Below, piece after piece: positions 39,480 to 45,403 of a stretch of DNA of 64,000 bases. Position 1 is the first letter of the stretch, and every line of letters begins with the position of its first letter. Position numbers and translations under genes: made by a program. Origin of the DNA: Synechococcales cyanobacterium C42_A2020_086 (GTDB taxonomy: Bacteria; Cyanobacteriota; Cyanobacteriia; Elainellales; Elainellaceae); contig JACYLU010000002.1 in NCBI GenBank assembly GCA_015272325.1, positions 62,001-126,000 on the forward strand. Direction: 5' to 3'. The notes beneath the pieces were generated by a model. The model ran no database searches, was not told the origin of the DNA, and saw only the letters and a list, made by a program, of their open reading frames with translations.

Positions 39480-40688
39480 ATGGATGTTCTGCTTCACCTC
39501 AGCCTTTCCCTAGGTCTCGCTAGTCTCTGTTGCGGAGCACTGGGATTTTACGGCTATGCCCTCTACAGCACCCTTAACTATTGGTTGCAGTCTGAAACAG
39601 TTCCCTATAGCGAATTTCAGCCACCCGTCACGCTATTGAAGCGGCTGAGGCGGTTGGATCCCGCCACCCAAGCTAGTCTTGTTTCGCTCTGCCAGCAGCA
39701 CTACCCCACCTACCAGATTCTGTTTCTGGTTGAAGACGGAGCCACCGCAGCCATAGATACCGTTGGCAAGCTGATTCAGCAATTTCCGGAGCGCGACATT
39801 CAGCTCATCGTCAGCTCTCAGCCACTAGACAATCATGCGTGGGGACCTGGACTCATCCAGGCAACCACCCTGGCTCGCTATGATCTGTGGGTGCTAATCG
39901 ACCCCGATATCCAGGTTGGACCCGATTATCTGCATCAGCTCGTGCAGCCTTTCCGCTATCCAGGTGTTGGGATTGTGACCTGCCCTTCGCGCTGGCAAAG
40001 CCACGATTGGGCAACGGCTCTTGCAGCAATCGGCACTGTTACTGATCTTTATCCGGGGCTGCTGGTGACTCGCCAACGTGAAGGGGTCCACTTTACCCTC
40101 AGCGGCACCCTTGCTCTGCGGCGAGCACTGCTCGACCAACCCGCGTGTCTAGACAGCTTAGCAGCCCAACAATCTCAACACATTAGCGATTTACGCTTGG
40201 GGCGGCTCCCCGCGATCCACGGCTACCGGGTTGTGCTGTCTGGGTATGTCGTTGAACAGATTGGGGAACGGCCCACCGCTGACTCCTGGATAGAAGGGGT
40301 GCGACGCCACTTCCGCTCTATCCAAGACCTACATGCCACGCGACCGGAACTGTATTGGCTCAAAGGCATCACCTACGGCACCCTCAGCAGCAGCCTGCTT
40401 CTGCTCGTTACCCACGGCGCTGCATTAGCCTGGGCACTCTGCGGTCTCACCTGGATGCTGCGCCTTCTCCTGGGCAGCGTGATGAGTTTCGTCCTCTGCG
40501 ACCGCACTATTCGCCGCTATTTCTGGCTGCTGCCGGTGTGGGATCTGCTCAGTTTCGGTGTCTGGTGCTGGCTGAGTGTCCCATCTGCGGCATTGAGGAC
40601 ACAACATCCTTCGCCGTCTGGGCTAGCGAAACCCAGCGCATCCCCAGCCCTAGGGTCAACTACCCTGCTCGATGCTGGAGTTCGCTGA
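39480..40688 (+). CDS. membrane GT2/GT21-like glycosyltransferase
   Basis: A 402-residue protein resembling ceramide-glucosyltransferase/HpnI-type enzymes. An N-terminal hydrophobic helix (about 1-30) precedes the GT domain: PPVTLLKRLRRLDPATQASL, YQILFLVEDGATAAI, VLIDPDIQVGPDYLHQLVQP with the DxD-like DPD, and a Q-x-x-R/W-like late motif in WIEGVRRHFRSIQDLHATRP. Three hydrophobic segments follow (about 300-375). Lipid acceptors such as hopanoid or sphingoid bases are likely from the family but unproven. A GTG at 39405 is in frame but lies inside the palindrome, so ATG 39480 is preferred. The last 29 bp overlap the convergent kinase gene. Confidence 0.8.
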   Translation: MDVLLHLSLSLGLASLCCGALGFYGYALYSTLNYWLQSETVPYSEFQPPVTLLKRLRRLDPATQASLVSLCQQHYPTYQILFLVEDGATAAIDTVGKLIQQFPERDIQLIVSSQPLDNHAWGPGLIQATTLARYDLWVLIDPDIQVGPDYLHQLVQPFRYPGVGIVTCPSRWQSHDWATALAAIGTVTDLYPGLLVTRQREGVHFTLSGTLALRRALLDQPACLDSLAAQQSQHISDLRLGRLPAIHGYRVVLSGYVVEQIGERPTADSWIEGVRRHFRSIQDLHATRPELYWLKGITYGTLSSSLLLLVTHGAALAWALCGLTWMLRLLLGSVMSFVLCDRTIRRYFWLLPVWDLLSFGVWCWLSVPSAALRTQHPSPSGLAKPSASPALGSTTLLDAGVR

Positions 40689-43600
40689 CTAGAGTCGTGA
40701 TCACCTGTACTAGCTCGGTCGGCTCAACGGGTTTGGCAAGATGGCGTTGGAACCCAGCAGCCAAAGCGCGGCGGTGATTGGCTTCGCCGGCATAGGCGGT
40801 CAAGGCAATGGCAGGGATGGGGCGTTGTTCTGGTCGAGAGGCATTCACCCATTGGAGGAGCGTATAACCATCCACCTCCGGCATACCGATATCACTAATC
40901 AGCACGTCCGGTGAGCGTTGCCGTATTTGATCAAGCGCCTCAGCGGCAGATGCTGCCAAACGGACTTGGGCACCCGCTAACTGCAAAATGCAGGCTAGCA
41001 GCTCTCGCATATCGGCTTCATCGTCCACGATCAGAATATCTAAATCCGTGAGCGGCATCGCCTGGGAGAGAACCGCATCCGGTGGCATCACCTCTGGTGA
41101 GTCTGTCTGGACCTGCAGCAGCGGCAGTCGCACCGTAAAGCACGCGCCTTGGTTGGCTCCCGCACTGGCAGCGGTTACTGTGCCGCCGTGCAGCTCAGTC
41201 AGGTGGCGCACAATGGCCAGCCCCAAGCCCAAACCACCAAACTTGCGGGTAATGCGACCATCCTCCTGCCGAAAGGAGTCAAACACGTAGGGTAGAAACT
41301 CAGGATCGATGCCTTTGCCGGTGTCGTTGATGGTAATTTGGGCGTAGGAGTGGGGAGTGGAGAGTGGGGCGTCATCCCGATTCCCGATTCTCGATTCCCG
41401 ATTCTCCACCTCTTCCAGCCGCACTTCCACCCGTCCCCCTGCCGGCGTAAACTTGATGGCATTTGAGAGCAAATTCCAAACAATTTGCTGTAGGCGAGCG
41501 GCATCACCTAAGATCTGCTCGGGCATCGGAGATAGAAAAGGCAGAATCTGGATACCCTTGGCTTCGGCAGACAGGTGCACGGTTTCGATGGCAGCTTCGA
41601 TCACGGTCGGCAAGTGAACGGGAGCTACATTCAGCACTAGCTTGCCGCGCAGAATCCGCGACACATCCAGCAAGTCTTCGATGAGCTGAGTCTGGAGTTT
41701 GACATTACGCTCAATAGTCTCCAGGGCCCGTTCAGTGGTATCGGGATCAAAGCTGCGGCTGCGCAGGAGTTGGGTCCAGCCCAGAATTGGGTTCAGCGGC
41801 GAGCGCAATTCGTGCGACAGCACCGCCAAAAACTCATCTTTGATGCGATTGGCAGCTTCAGCCTGTTCGCGGGCGGCTTGTTCGCGGGCCAAGAGCTGCT
41901 CGCGTTCTGCTTCCGCTTGCTTCCTCACTGTCATGTCCAGGATGGTGCCCAAAAAGCGGGTTGCTTGCCCTGCGGCATTAAAGAACACCCGGCCTCGCGT
42001 TACCACCCAGCGTTCAATGCCGTCCTCAATCCCGATCGTGCGGTACTCTAGGCTGTATTTGCCGCCGTTGGCAGGATCCAAACAGCGCTGCACGGTCTGC
42101 TGGAGTCGCTCCCGGTCGTCGGGGTGAACCCCGGCTAAATGCGTCTCAAAGGTGACCTCTGCCTCGGGCGACAGCCCAAATATCGCTTTGCAGCGGTCAT
42201 CCCATTGCAGTTCGCCGCTGATTGGGTTCCAGTCCCAGGTTCCTATTTCCGCCGATTCCAGAGCCAGCCGCAGCCGCGCTTCAGCGTCCCGCACGGCGGC
42301 CTCAGCCTGCTTGCGATCGGTGATTTTTCCAAAGGAAATGGCCACCCCATCGTCGAGTTGCACCACCGTAATCCGAAACCAGTCGCGAATGCCATCGGCT
42401 TCGTAGAACAGTTCAAACTGGCTCGGCTGACCGGTTTCTGCCACCCGTACGTAGGTTTCAAACACCGTGGTGCGATTGCCCGGCACAATCTCGAGCAGCC
42501 GTTGCCCCACGAGTTCCGTTACCGGGCGACCCACAATCCGAGCAGCGGCAGGGTTGGCATACAGCCATTCAAAATCGATAATTCGCCCCGAGGCATCGCG
42601 AATACTTTGCAGCAAAATGAAACCATCGATCGACAGCTCCTGCACCGCCCGGAAGCGCTGTTCGCTCTGGTACGACCGTATCTCTGCCTGCTTGCGCTCG
42701 GTAATGTCTTGCGAAATGCCGATAGTTCGCATCGGCTGCCCCTGAGCATCGTAGTCTACCTGCCCCATTGCCAGAATCCAGCGCAGGCTGCCGTCTGGGC
42801 AGAGAATTCGATACTCACAGGTATTTTGCGTCGGATCGGCAATCAAGCGGTCAATCGACTGGTGGACCCGCTCGCGGTCATCGGGATGGATCAGGTCGCT
42901 AAAGGTGGCATAGCTTACTTCATCATCGACCGATAGCCCATACAGTGTTTTACAGCGATCGGTCCAGTATAGCTCTCCCGACTGCAAGTTATACTCCCAT
43001 AGCCCTAGCCCAGCTCCCTCCACCGCTAGCCGCAACCGCTCCTCACTTTGCCGCAGGGCCGCCTCAATATGTTTGCGCTCGCTAATATCGCGAAAGAAGA
43101 TACCCAACCCGACCTCGGCTGGGTAGGCATGCACCTCGTACCACGTCATGGTCGGCTCGTAGAGAAACTCAAAATGAGCTGGCACTTGCTCTGCCACCGC
43201 CCGCCGATATTCAAACTCGATGCTTCTGCCTACCGACCACGGCCAGACCTGCCACTGCGTTTTGCCTAGCACCTCCGCTAGGGTTAGGTCCGTCAAGCGC
43301 ACCGCCTGCGAATTCATGTAAGTGATCCGCCAGTCCTGATCCAGAGCGACAAAGGCATCGGTCATGTTCTCCAGCAGTGCCGTGATGCGCTGATTCGCCT
43401 GAGACAGATCCCGCTCGATACGCTTGCGCTCGGTGGTTTCCTGCACCATGGCATTCACTCCTAGCACCTGCCCCTTTTCTCCCTTGAGGGGATAGTAGCT
43501 AACAAGCCAGTGGCGTATGACTCCCGGACGAGCTGAGTTAGACCCAGTGACCTCTAGATTCAAAATCGGCTCTCCCGAGTCCAGCACCTGTTGAAACAGC

Positions 43601-44025
43601 GGCACAAGCTGGTCAGCCATCTCAGGCAATACCTCGCTGAGGGTATGCCCCAAATGCTCCGCGACCGGTACACCATTGATCGCCGCTAGGTGTTCGTTGA
43701 TCCGCACAAAACGCAGGTTGCAATCAACAAAACATAGCCCGATTGGAGCAGTCGTATAAATTGCTTCCAGTTCGGCCAACTGCTGTTGAGCGTCGTTTGA
43801 GCTAACTGTCGCAGCCATGTTCGGTGGCTGGGGAGAAGCAGCTGTTGATAGGTCTTGAACCCATTGCTCGATTAGGTGTTCCAGCAGCTCAGAGGAAGAA
43901 AGCCCCCTTTGCTGAGCCTGAGCTTCAAGACGGTGTAGGGCAGTAGGAGTCAACGAAACGGTGATCTGCTGCGATGGCGCTCCATGTTCTGAATTCACCC
44001 GTGGTTCCCCTACGTTGTGTTGCAT
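40660..44025 (-). CDS. hybrid histidine kinase with N-terminal RHH domain and five PAS domains
   Basis: A 1,121-residue multidomain sensor. Residues about 20-60 look like a ribbon-helix-helix DNA-binding domain (QITVSLTPTALHRLEAQAQQ, then GLSSSELLEHLIEQWV). Five PAS modules follow (about 85-200, 205-325, 326-450, 451-575, 576-705), several ending in the TERK/DRK linker. HisKA has the phosphorylated His at about 738 (VLSHELRSPLNP); HATPase_c has N box WNLLSNAIKFTPAG, DTGKGI and GGLGLGLAIV; a C-terminal receiver (995-1121) has VDDEAD, Asp about 1045 in ISDIGMPE, and LAKPVE. No membrane segment is seen, so it is cytoplasmic. Heptanucleotide arrays insert about 20 residues at 873-893 in the ATPase domain. 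Signal and partner are unknown. Confidence 0.9.
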   Translation of the reverse strand: MQHNVGEPRVNSEHGAPSQQITVSLTPTALHRLEAQAQQRGLSSSELLEHLIEQWVQDLSTAASPQPPNMAATVSSNDAQQQLAELEAIYTTAPIGLCFVDCNLRFVRINEHLAAINGVPVAEHLGHTLSEVLPEMADQLVPLFQQVLDSGEPILNLEVTGSNSARPGVIRHWLVSYYPLKGEKGQVLGVNAMVQETTERKRIERDLSQANQRITALLENMTDAFVALDQDWRITYMNSQAVRLTDLTLAEVLGKTQWQVWPWSVGRSIEFEYRRAVAEQVPAHFEFLYEPTMTWYEVHAYPAEVGLGIFFRDISERKHIEAALRQSEERLRLAVEGAGLGLWEYNLQSGELYWTDRCKTLYGLSVDDEVSYATFSDLIHPDDRERVHQSIDRLIADPTQNTCEYRILCPDGSLRWILAMGQVDYDAQGQPMRTIGISQDITERKQAEIRSYQSEQRFRAVQELSIDGFILLQSIRDASGRIIDFEWLYANPAAARIVGRPVTELVGQRLLEIVPGNRTTVFETYVRVAETGQPSQFELFYEADGIRDWFRITVVQLDDGVAISFGKITDRKQAEAAVRDAEARLRLALESAEIGTWDWNPISGELQWDDRCKAIFGLSPEAEVTFETHLAGVHPDDRERLQQTVQRCLDPANGGKYSLEYRTIGIEDGIERWVVTRGRVFFNAAGQATRFLGTILDMTVRKQAEAEREQLLAREQAAREQAEAANRIKDEFLAVLSHELRSPLNPILGWTQLLRSRSFDPDTTERALETIERNVKLQTQLIEDLLDVSRILRGKLVLNVAPVHLPTVIEAAIETVHLSAEAKGIQILPFLSPMPEQILGDAARLQQIVWNLLSNAIKFTPAGGRVEVRLEEVENRESRIGNRDDAPLSTPHSYAQITINDTGKGIDPEFLPYVFDSFRQEDGRITRKFGGLGLGLAIVRHLTELHGGTVTAASAGANQGACFTVRLPLLQVQTDSPEVMPPDAVLSQAMPLTDLDILIVDDEADMRELLACILQLAGAQVRLAASAAEALDQIRQRSPDVLISDIGMPEVDGYTLLQWVNASRPEQRPIPAIALTAYAGEANHRRALAAGFQRHLAKPVEPTELVQVITTLVSELQHRAG
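41347..41403. repeat. two heptanucleotide tandem arrays inside the kinase gene
   Basis: GGAGTGG occurs three times in tandem with one change (41347-41367), and CCCGATT four times with one change (41376-41403). Heptamer arrays like these (STRR type) are normally intergenic in cyanobacteria. Here they lie in frame in the HATPase region and encode the segment around ENRESRIGNRDDAPLSTPHS. Confidence 0.8.
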
Positions 44026-44371
44026 CCCAAAACCCGTCCCTGGAGACGCTTACTGCTCTATTAAATCTAACTTTCTAGAGAGCTTGAGTAAGCCCTAAGG
44101 AGGAATTAGGACATCGGGTTGCGAGCTGAGGGCAAGACCAGAGCCAGCTCTGCCTATCTGATATAACTTGTTCCATTCGATAGAAGACAGCAAGCACCCT
44201 TGCAAGCACAGTGCAATTAGGCGATCGACCCGTCAGGATTGGACGCAAAAAAGCACGGCCCATCCCGATTGTATCGTCAGGGCGGTGCATTACTACACCT
44301 AGAACGGTTTAGAGAACCAAGAGGTTTAGAGAACTAAGATAGTTGTCTCCAGTCTCAAGCGTAATGGATAA
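44026..44371. other. non-coding stretch between kinase and AI-2E-type gene
   Basis: About 346 bp between divergent genes. Contains a tandem 17-bp direct repeat (GGTTTAGAGAACCAAGA at 44306-44322 and the same with one change at 44323-44339), close to the next start. No other structure recognised. Confidence 0.5.
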
Positions 44372-45403
44372 ATGGATAAACCACCTTCAAATCTATGGCA
44401 CCAGCTCAGCAACGCCAAGCTTGTGCGCTACCTGTTGCTATTTGCCCTAGCCTGGGTCATCGTCCGAGTCTTGGCGTATTTTGAAACCGTTCTAGTGATT
44501 TTCATTTTTGCTGCCATCCTGGCATTTTTGCTCAACTATCCAGTGCAATGGATGAAACGATTTCTGCCGCACTGGGCAGCCGTAATTCTCATATTTTTAA
44601 GCAGTTTACTGCTGCTCGGCGGATTAATCGCGACCCTAGGTTTAGCAGTGATCTCTCAGGCACAACAGCTACTAGAGCAGGCACCACAGTTAATCAACTT
44701 TGCCATTGAACTCCTCGACGACCTGCAATCCCTATTGACAGACTGGAATTTCAACGTAGACTTCAGCACCGTAGAAGCCCAGCTCAGAGATCAAGCGCTG
44801 TCTACATTGGGATTTGGTTTCGCAACGTTACAAAATCTGCTCTTTGGCCTTCTAGATTTAATCTTAATTGCTGTTGTTGCCTTTTTTATGCTGCTAGATG
44901 GCGAACGGCTGTGGAAATTTATTGTTCGTATTTTCCCTCGCCACTTGCAGAGTGATATTACAAATGCCATTCAAAAGAACTTCTTAGGATTTTTCTGGGG
45001 ACGCTTTTTGCTTTCTCTCTTCTTTGGCATTTCTGCTTTTTTTGTTTTTATTCTGCTCAATATTCCTTATGCACTGGTCATGGCAGCCATTGTTGGCGTG
45101 TTTGATCTCATTCCAGGCATCGGCGCTACTCTGGGCATTAGTTTAGTTGGTTTGATTTTGCTGCCGCAAGGCGTGCTGCTAAGCCTCAAGGTGGTTATCG
45201 GCTGCATTGTGCTGCAACAAATTGAGGAAAATCTGCTGATGCCGCGAATCATGCAAGGCTCGATCAATATGAATCCCGTTGTAATGTTCTTTGCGTTGCT
45301 CGTTGGGGCCAGAATTGCTGGATTGGTCGGCGTGTTTCTCTCGATTCCCATTACTGGGGTTTTGATTAGTTTGCTGGACGTGGATGAAATGCGGAGCGAA
45401 TAG
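44372..45403 (+). CDS. AI-2E/PerM family permease
   Basis: A 343-residue membrane protein of the AI-2E (TqsA/PerM, UPF0118) family, with about seven or eight hydrophobic segments. The conserved PGIGATLGI block is in GVFDLIPGIGATLGISLVGL (about residue 245), followed by QQIEENLLMPRIMQGSINMN (about 290) and GARIAGLVGVFLSIPITGVL. Substrates of this family are diverse (AI-2, Na+, small metabolites) and cannot be read from sequence. Its ATG at 44372 is preceded by a second, out-of-frame ATGGATAA copy at 44364. A short gap (97 bp) leads to the iron-enzyme gene on the same strand. Confidence 0.87.
   Translation: MDKPPSNLWHQLSNAKLVRYLLLFALAWVIVRVLAYFETVLVIFIFAAILAFLLNYPVQWMKRFLPHWAAVILIFLSSLLLLGGLIATLGLAVISQAQQLLEQAPQLINFAIELLDDLQSLLTDWNFNVDFSTVEAQLRDQALSTLGFGFATLQNLLFGLLDLILIAVVAFFMLLDGERLWKFIVRIFPRHLQSDITNAIQKNFLGFFWGRFLLSLFFGISAFFVFILLNIPYALVMAAIVGVFDLIPGIGATLGISLVGLILLPQGVLLSLKVVIGCIVLQQIEENLLMPRIMQGSINMNPVVMFFALLVGARIAGLVGVFLSIPITGVLISLLDVDEMRSE

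Follow-up and report, generated by a model that had tools for sequence, protein, structure and literature searches.

A ribbon-helix-helix head on a cyanobacterial hybrid histidine kinase: a diverged representative of a recurring, probably self-regulating group of kinases

In this work, we carried out a computational analysis of a sensor kinase gene in a 64,000-nucleotide stretch of the genome of Synechococcales cyanobacterium C42_A2020_086 (GenBank assembly GCA_015272325.1, contig JACYLU010000002.1, positions 62,001 to 126,000), referred to below as the window. The gene is an open reading frame (ORF) on the reverse strand that encodes 1121 amino acids, its ATG being the earliest possible start in the frame. 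An initial annotation, made from the DNA letters, had described the product as a five-PAS hybrid histidine kinase with a terminal receiver and no membrane segment, and had read residues 20–60 as a CopG-type ribbon-helix-helix (RHH) domain through which the sensor could act directly on DNA. Pfam bore out the kinase architecture, with five PAS stretches followed by the elements of a hybrid histidine kinase, namely HisKA with His738, HATPase_c and a receiver with Asp1045 (Table 1). The absence of a membrane segment was likewise upheld, the highest 19-residue Kyte-Doolittle mean being 1.49, at residue 1009 within the receiver. We found that the N-terminus of the kinase is an RHH domain and that heads of this kind recur on cyanobacterial kinases, most of them preceded by a candidate operator. 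The window kinase is a diverged member of this recurring set, which is probably self-regulating.

Table 1. Features of the RHH-headed kinase gene and of its upstream region (positions in the window)
Feature	Position	Strand	Basis or remark
Hybrid histidine kinase gene, RHH – PAS x5 – HisKA – HATPase_c – receiver	40660..44025	-	ORF and Pfam
RHH head, residues 18–62	43840..43974	-	Pfam RHH_1 at 21–56, profile, AlphaFold2, structure neighbours
PAS 1, residues 93–202	43420..43749	-	PAS_4 match
PAS 2, about residues 206–320, outer limits approximate	43066..43410	-	PAS_8 match at 212–262
PAS 3, residues 329–441	42703..43041	-	PAS match
PAS 4, residues 485–561	42343..42573	-	PAS_9 match
PAS 5, about residues 588–705, outer limits approximate	41911..42264	-	Pfam
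HisKA, residues 729–791, phospho-acceptor His738	41653..41841	-	Pfam, above cut-off
HATPase_c, residues 840–969	41119..41508	-	Pfam, above cut-off
Receiver (Response_reg), residues 997–1109, phospho-acceptor Asp1045	40699..41037	-	Pfam, above cut-off
Operator-like element GCGTCTCCAGGGACGG, near the family operator position	44034..44049	-	Outer CGT..ACGG as in the family, centre differs
Promoter block GTTAGATTTAATAGAG, common to the RHH-headed family, with 34 nt between TTTAAT and the ATG	44056..44071	-	19.2 bits
CCTTAGGG, in the same promoter-region columns as the family CTTAAGG	44093..44100	-	38-nt upstream part, -1.7 bits

The RHH_1 family of Pfam (PF01402) matched residues 21–56 of the kinase, with a score of 20.5 bits in the full protein, which is exactly the cut-off of 20.5, and of 25.6 bits when residues 1–100 were taken alone. 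Against a profile built from 76 other cyanobacterial heads, with the window excluded, residues 1–100 scored 36.0 bits (E 1.1e-10, 505 sequences searched), whereas the best of 500 shuffles of the same residues reached 6.4 bits. AlphaFold2, given a 37-row alignment, predicted helices at residues 27–40 and 44–63, with block means of the predicted local distance difference test (pLDDT) of 90–97 over residues 21–60; outside the head the model was poor (overall mean pLDDT 70.3, predicted template modelling score 0.42). RHH domains are dimers that bind DNA through a two-stranded sheet, as in Arc, CopG and MetJ. Residues 20–25 of the head are extended, with no strand assigned by DSSP in the lone monomer, and their partner strand would be supplied by a second chain.

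Structural neighbours of the head, a tiny domain, were sought in two ways. Foldseek against the PDB returned nothing at an E-value of 1e-3 or better; by title, 39 of its 50 best rows were RHH proteins, two were uninformative and nine were other proteins, those 11 all ranking 25th or lower, and the top matches comprised RHH antitoxins, ParG, CopG, MatP, the DNA-binding domain of PutA, and Arc. The best VIA-align match was the PutA DNA-binding domain (Z 5.8, root-mean-square deviation 2.1 over 45 residues), tied with others within 1, and all 50 rows with telling titles were RHH proteins, three titles being uninformative (9kkd, 7vp6 and 7vp3). A VIA-align Z below 8 may by itself reflect a common arrangement, and chance is possible for small helical folds. 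Because Z values of this size can arise by chance, we take the support to lie in the uniform lists of neighbours together with the sequence evidence. CopG is among the weak sequence matches (E 0.1). The reading of the head as a chance match or a signalling helix, to which the full-length Pfam score that merely equals its cut-off and the weak Foldseek E-values could be credited, is scarcely credible in view of the profile score relative to its shuffles, the confident two-helix model and the RHH neighbours. A coiled coil, the outcome that the initial annotation had set against its proposal when it suggested structure prediction, was ruled out by the same profile comparison, the AlphaFold2 model and the VIA-align neighbours, and the RHH domain that it had proposed was thereby confirmed.

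RHH heads before PAS-HisKA kinases, for which the initial annotation had advised a search, proved to be common in cyanobacteria. Among 36 genomes of the taxonomic family of the window organism, several long ORFs have a similar head followed by PAS domains, and in 17 heads drawn from searches of that family and of the phylum the strand is preceded by a common basic arm, MKRDxTGKFVxNW. A scan of one genome per species with those 17 heads returned 135 stretches, from which 91 relatives were taken and 80 kept. At 75 of the 80 loci an ORF with a kinase domain like that of the window begins with the head, and 72 of these 75 ORFs also match the receiver; the other five comprise a contig-cut ORF (L115), a 67-amino-acid ORF (L161) and three short RHH stretches (L184, L185 and L187). 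All 75 headed kinases come from cyanobacterial records, which include Nostoc, Leptolyngbya, Calothrix, Microcoleus, Nodosilinea, many others and one Gloeobacterales bin. Four divergent heads, searched against 388 genomes of the class, gave by a hand count of rows at least 56 head-bearing open frames of at least 582 amino acids in at least 37 genomes, part of which were inspected individually. Heads were also found on what we take to be a differently built HisKA with two receivers (L224 and L225), on a kinase without a receiver that presumably has an HRVKNNL-type motif (L230), and on plain kinases (L228 and L229). No gap is needed to align the first 58 residues of the window head with the family heads, and its length from the start codon is the same as theirs. 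Judged by sequence, then, the window kinase is one of a set of RHH-headed sensor kinases that is widespread in cyanobacteria. No single partner gene is shared beside the heads at 78 loci, the largest cluster holding 25 of 254 neighbour ORFs and being kinase-like as judged by its first member.

Two further arrangements of the head were observed. At L161:8001-11413 a 67-amino-acid RHH head and a 1072-amino-acid headless kinase lie in different frames, the kinase ORF beginning inside the end of the head ORF; this is either a true split into a head gene and a kinase gene or a frameshift in the sequence. The same style of head also opens ORFs of about 290–550 amino acids (L046–L067 and others), with many of about 290–320 amino acids in one family (f6). 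Five of the ORFs (L055, L061, L062, L066 and L067) have long coiled-coil-like repeats, and the stretch of them that was read shows no kinase.

Most head genes are preceded by a 16-bp near-palindrome, CCGTRTAYRYATACGG, the commonest form of which is CCGTGTATGCATACGG. At least 12 of its 16 positions were matched in 78 of 86 distinct headed upstreams, in 1 of 61 headless kinases and in 19 of 1720 shuffled headed upstreams, the 86 being the 90 headed kinases less the window, L222 and L224 (where the script did not place the start at the head) and one duplicate, with L230 unscored. Sites with at least 13 matches numbered 76, and in 65 of these cases the start codon follows after 10 or 11 nt. The headless starts were taken as the first possible in frame and so may precede the true start; a wider span of -140 to +450, used to cover that, held sites with at least 13 matches in 77 of 86 headed genes vs 1 of 62 headless ones. 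A TTNAAT box precedes the operator in 74 of the 78 cases, at a spacing of 8 nt in 57. When the upstreams were anchored on the start codon the conservation was blurred (0.45 at -27 to -11, 0.44 at -40 to -28 and 0.20 at -60 to -41). Heads that differ at strand residue 22 (S, N, or K/R) also differ in the centre of their operators, as would be expected if that residue touches DNA, and all eight K/R-22 heads have G at operator base 7, as does one other head (L125).

Several features of these data count against an operator that is read by the head. The 86 upstreams are mutually related and are not independent draws. Column conservation aligned on the site was 1.54 bits, vs 0.36 far upstream and 0.58 after it, and is partly built in, the sites having been chosen by match. 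Eight of the 86 upstreams fall below 12 matches: L182, which has a variant operator form at the usual place, L085, L074, the heads on other kinase classes L225, L228 and L229, and the Gloeobacterales-like L226 and L227. The link between residue 22 and the operator centre corresponds to one event on the head tree and to two on well supported branches of the kinase tree, which are not independent, and because it amounts to so few events we did not count it as support. One could suppose that the palindrome is an RNA or core-promoter element rather than the operator of the head, as it lies just 3' of the TTNAAT box, close to where transcription is predicted to begin and probably within the leader, and as the heads on L225, L228 and L229 occur without it. 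We consider this improbable: the link between head and palindrome is kept on kinase cores that do not form a single clade and at two head relics, headless kinases lack the palindrome with one exception, the A3 and C14 forms are unpaired at columns 3 and 14, and the centre differs with the strand residue of the head, though not independently. Taken together, these computational results make DNA binding by the family heads well supported.

The distribution of the operator in genomes points to its probable role. A loose pattern, CCGTNTANNNATACGG, gave 74 listed places in 61 of the 388 genomes, 25 of which have the strict centre YRY. By comparison by eye with the places of heads, 22 of these 25 lie directly before a head (among them one contig-cut ORF, one ORF of less than 400 amino acids without a kinase match and one damaged start), two lie at head relics (L323 and L326) and one lies elsewhere, near the start of an ORF that we take to be EAL-like (G565). 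In the same comparison with the listed head places, none of the other 49 places was seen at a head. A second operator form, CCATATGGSCATAYGG, occurs at seven places, all seven directly before a head, and its reversed control at none. Since the operator is nearly confined to head genes, it probably serves, as in PutA, to control the gene of the kinase itself rather than a regulon. The apparent relics L323 and L326 have kept the promoter box and the operator, and in them the head frame is absent or broken.

Two other features of the family upstreams were noted. A conserved CTTAAGG..AGATTC lies about 35 nt before TTNAAT in the family promoters and is perhaps an activator site. In L174 and L181, two operator-like tandem copies precede the head gene, one of them CCGTATATGTATATGG and the other with TATATACGG at its end.

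The phylogeny of the kinase domains revealed that heads have been gained or lost repeatedly. On a tree of 94 rows (45 headed and 49 headless, with headless rows of less than 45% identity and L161 excluded), the head label changes 12 times, and at least three of those changes are forced by well supported branches. One clade with good support (99) comprises 18 headed rows; the window kinase is not part of it and groups weakly (80) with two headless kinases encoded in the same genome. A single clade for 20 headed kinases was rejected by the approximately unbiased (AU) test (p 0.0004) in a 40-row subset that was hand-picked after the 94-row tree had been seen, which demonstrates that the headed kinases are not one clade. 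Placement of the window kinase with eight rows of the main clade was not rejected (AU p 0.40), and its head may or may not have come with the kinase from that clade. The kinase domain closest to that of the window among the 94 rows is also from its own genome (L238, 74%) and is headless, as is the closest relative of PAS 1–2 (L089, 56% over residues 16–276 of that query). No close relative that keeps the head was found in the 36 family genomes, where head matches have about 26–45% identity, nor did a search of one genome per species with the window head as sole query return one.

The 5' region of the window gene resembles that of the family in part. Its promoter block scored 19.2 bits, which none of 5000 shuffles equalled, and the best of the 61 headless kinases reached 7.8; the TTNAAT columns of this profile are fixed by construction. 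The distance of 34 nt from TTTAAT to the ATG agrees with the 34–35 nt given by the commonest family spacings. The 38-nt part further upstream scored -1.7 bits, yet just 59 of 20,000 shuffles reach that score. Given the promoter block, the 34-nt spacing and perhaps the further upstream element, it is likely that the 5' cassette of the window shares descent with that of the family.

The head and the operator-like element of the window, on the other hand, differ from those of the family. Positions 2, 3, 8, 18, 44 and 53 are basic in 75–76 of the 76 family heads at each column; in the window they are Q, H, P, S, S and E, none of the six being basic. The window head lacks the basic arm MKRDxxGKF, and its net charge is -3 vs a mean of +3.5 for the 76 heads. 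The operator-like GCGTCTCCAGGGACGG scored -3.0 bits against the family operator, a value for which 234 of 5000 shuffles are as good and which is not significant, and the palindromicity of the window upstream, 5, is equalled or beaten in 24 of the 61 headless upstreams. As for a regulon, the window element occurs at 43 places in its own genome with up to three mismatches vs 54 for the reversed control, and for lack of enrichment this possibility was rejected. With six basic residues lost and the operator unrecognisable, specific DNA binding by the window head is doubtful, and we would judge it somewhat less probable than its absence. The earlier proposal that such a head could act directly on DNA thus holds up well computationally for the family, which has a cognate operator at its own genes, and is in doubt for the protein that prompted it.

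Two accounts of the window head have to be weighed here. According to the first, this head, or any of the kinase heads, no longer binds DNA and works solely as a clamp whose intertwined dimer keeps the PAS/HisKA dimer in register. RHH domains are dimeric and kinases work as dimers, and the lost basic residues and the non-significant operator of the window agree with such a role, as do the acidic heads L074 and L087, which are also without a recognisable operator (L087 as judged by eye). A clamp would leave unexplained the operator at 78 of 86 family heads and its near exclusivity to head genes; L081, an acidic head with two of the six basic residues, still has a site with 14 of 16 matches, and the strand positions of the window head that we take, after Arc and CopG, to face DNA stay polar (Q20, T22 and S24). 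On this evidence we regard the clamp as evenly poised between true and false. According to the second account, the window head binds DNA with a changed specificity and GCGTCTCCAGGGACGG is a re-evolved operator. The element is near the family position with the outer CGT and ACGG kept, the promoter block and the total spacing are conserved, and family operators do differ with strand residue 22. Its score and its palindromicity, as given above, are unremarkable among shuffles and headless upstreams, it lies 10 nt from TTTAAT rather than the 8 nt of 57 of 74 family cases, and it is not enriched in its own genome, so that a re-evolved operator can be proposed only tentatively.

The explanation that we prefer for the whole is a set of RHH-headed kinases with an operator of their own, self-regulating, of which the window gene is a diverged copy with an altered head, and we hold it to be reasonably probable. 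Starting from the fold assignment, the recurrence of the head, its association with the operator and the multiple gains or losses, which were established computationally, we infer how DNA binding, repression and any effect of a signal or of phosphorylation could be arranged. The head would bind the 16-bp near-palindromic operator as a dimer or a pair of dimers; the half-sites being 12 bp apart, two dimers, and hence two kinase dimers, are suggested for each operator. From a site between the promoter-like TTNAAT box and the start codon, the kinase would repress or otherwise tune its own transcription in the manner of PutA, and such a placement agrees with the self-repression known from PutA and TrcR. 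Promoter, operator and head would move as a unit, a 5' cassette that different kinases have repeatedly acquired or lost. The gene in the window would then have a diverged copy of the cassette, with the RHH fold and the promoter kept, the basic residues gone and the operator degenerate or re-targeted, and its head may serve mainly in dimerisation or in the positioning of an input, or may weakly bind a changed site. A bolder form of the explanation is that a swappable promoter-operator-RHH cassette makes kinases into signal-responsive repressors, in which two kinase dimers sit with their heads down on the 16-bp operator, across the start of their own transcript, their release is set by a signal or by phosphorylation, and the head and operator of the window have diverged together. 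As the site is almost nowhere else in the genomes searched, the head would exist in that case to meter the kinase's own dose. In so specific a form we think the explanation rather unlikely to be right.

Precedents exist for parts of this arrangement. Trifunctional PutA carries an N-terminal RHH domain on a large enzyme and is an autogenous repressor (PMC5293562). The RHH-headed kinases share that layout, and the RHH domain of PutA is among the tied best structural neighbours of the window head; PutA is a flavoenzyme, whereas the kinases are sensors, for which repression is proposed here. No PRODH or P5CDH domain is among the Pfam matches of the window protein, which may work like PutA and is not a member of its family. 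In the hybrid two-component systems (HTCS) of Bacteroides the DNA-binding domain is of the AraC type and C-terminal, beside the receiver. These proteins hold a sensor kinase, a receiver and a DNA-binding domain in one chain, and the receiver can restrain the fused DNA-binding domain (PMC11253607). The combination of kinase, receiver and DNA-binding domain in one chain is thus common to both, while HTCS are membrane sensors and the window kinase is cytosolic, with the RHH domain at its N-terminus and the receiver at its end. The cyanobacterial RHH protein TrcR (All0854) of Anabaena sp. PCC 7120 represses its own gene via a conserved site that overlaps the promoter (PMC10272220), and is in that respect similar; it differs in its other targets and in its 8-bp consensus site, for example TGTAGTAT before the trn operon, and no kinase fusion is described in the part of that source drawn on here. 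The CopG, Arc and MetJ repressors and the RHH antitoxins share the fold and the Pfam family RHH_1 and are free-standing small proteins, whereas here the domain is the head of a kinase.

The initial annotation knew of no described example of an RHH domain fused to such a kinase. Such heads recur in cyanobacteria, and an Arc-type RHH-HisKA-REC architecture is mentioned for Lokiarchaeum (PMC5847659), in which RHH is likewise joined to HisKA and REC in one protein; that example is archaeal, and the passage that mentions it describes no PAS array, operator or function. For the cyanobacterial set, no description of RHH-headed kinases was found among the open-access literature matches listed, and the parts consulted of PMC9679502 and PMC11237479 list or describe RHH proteins separately from kinases.

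Two repeats were also noted in the window. Heptamer repeats of the TCCCGAT kind are familiar in cyanobacteria, and an array of 4.3 copies at 41375–41404 lies in frame within HATPase_c and encodes part of an insert at about residues 873–893. At 44306–44339, just 5' of a divergent gene that starts at 44372 and presumably resembles the AI-2E family of transporters, a tandem 17-bp pair (GGTTTAGAGAACCAAGA and GGTTTAGAGAACTAAGA) gave the sole mismatch-free matches in the genome and is possibly the site of another regulator.

In the usual view, sensor kinases reach DNA only via a response regulator. If the explanation preferred here is true, cytosolic kinases with a DNA-binding head of their own and a private operator would provide a direct link from sensing to the expression of the kinase itself, by which a sensor would set its own dose. 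The pairs of heads and operators, whose centres differ along with the strand residue, would in addition be material for studies of how small RHH domains choose their sites. The window kinase, in turn, is probably a diverged member of this recurrent kinase set.

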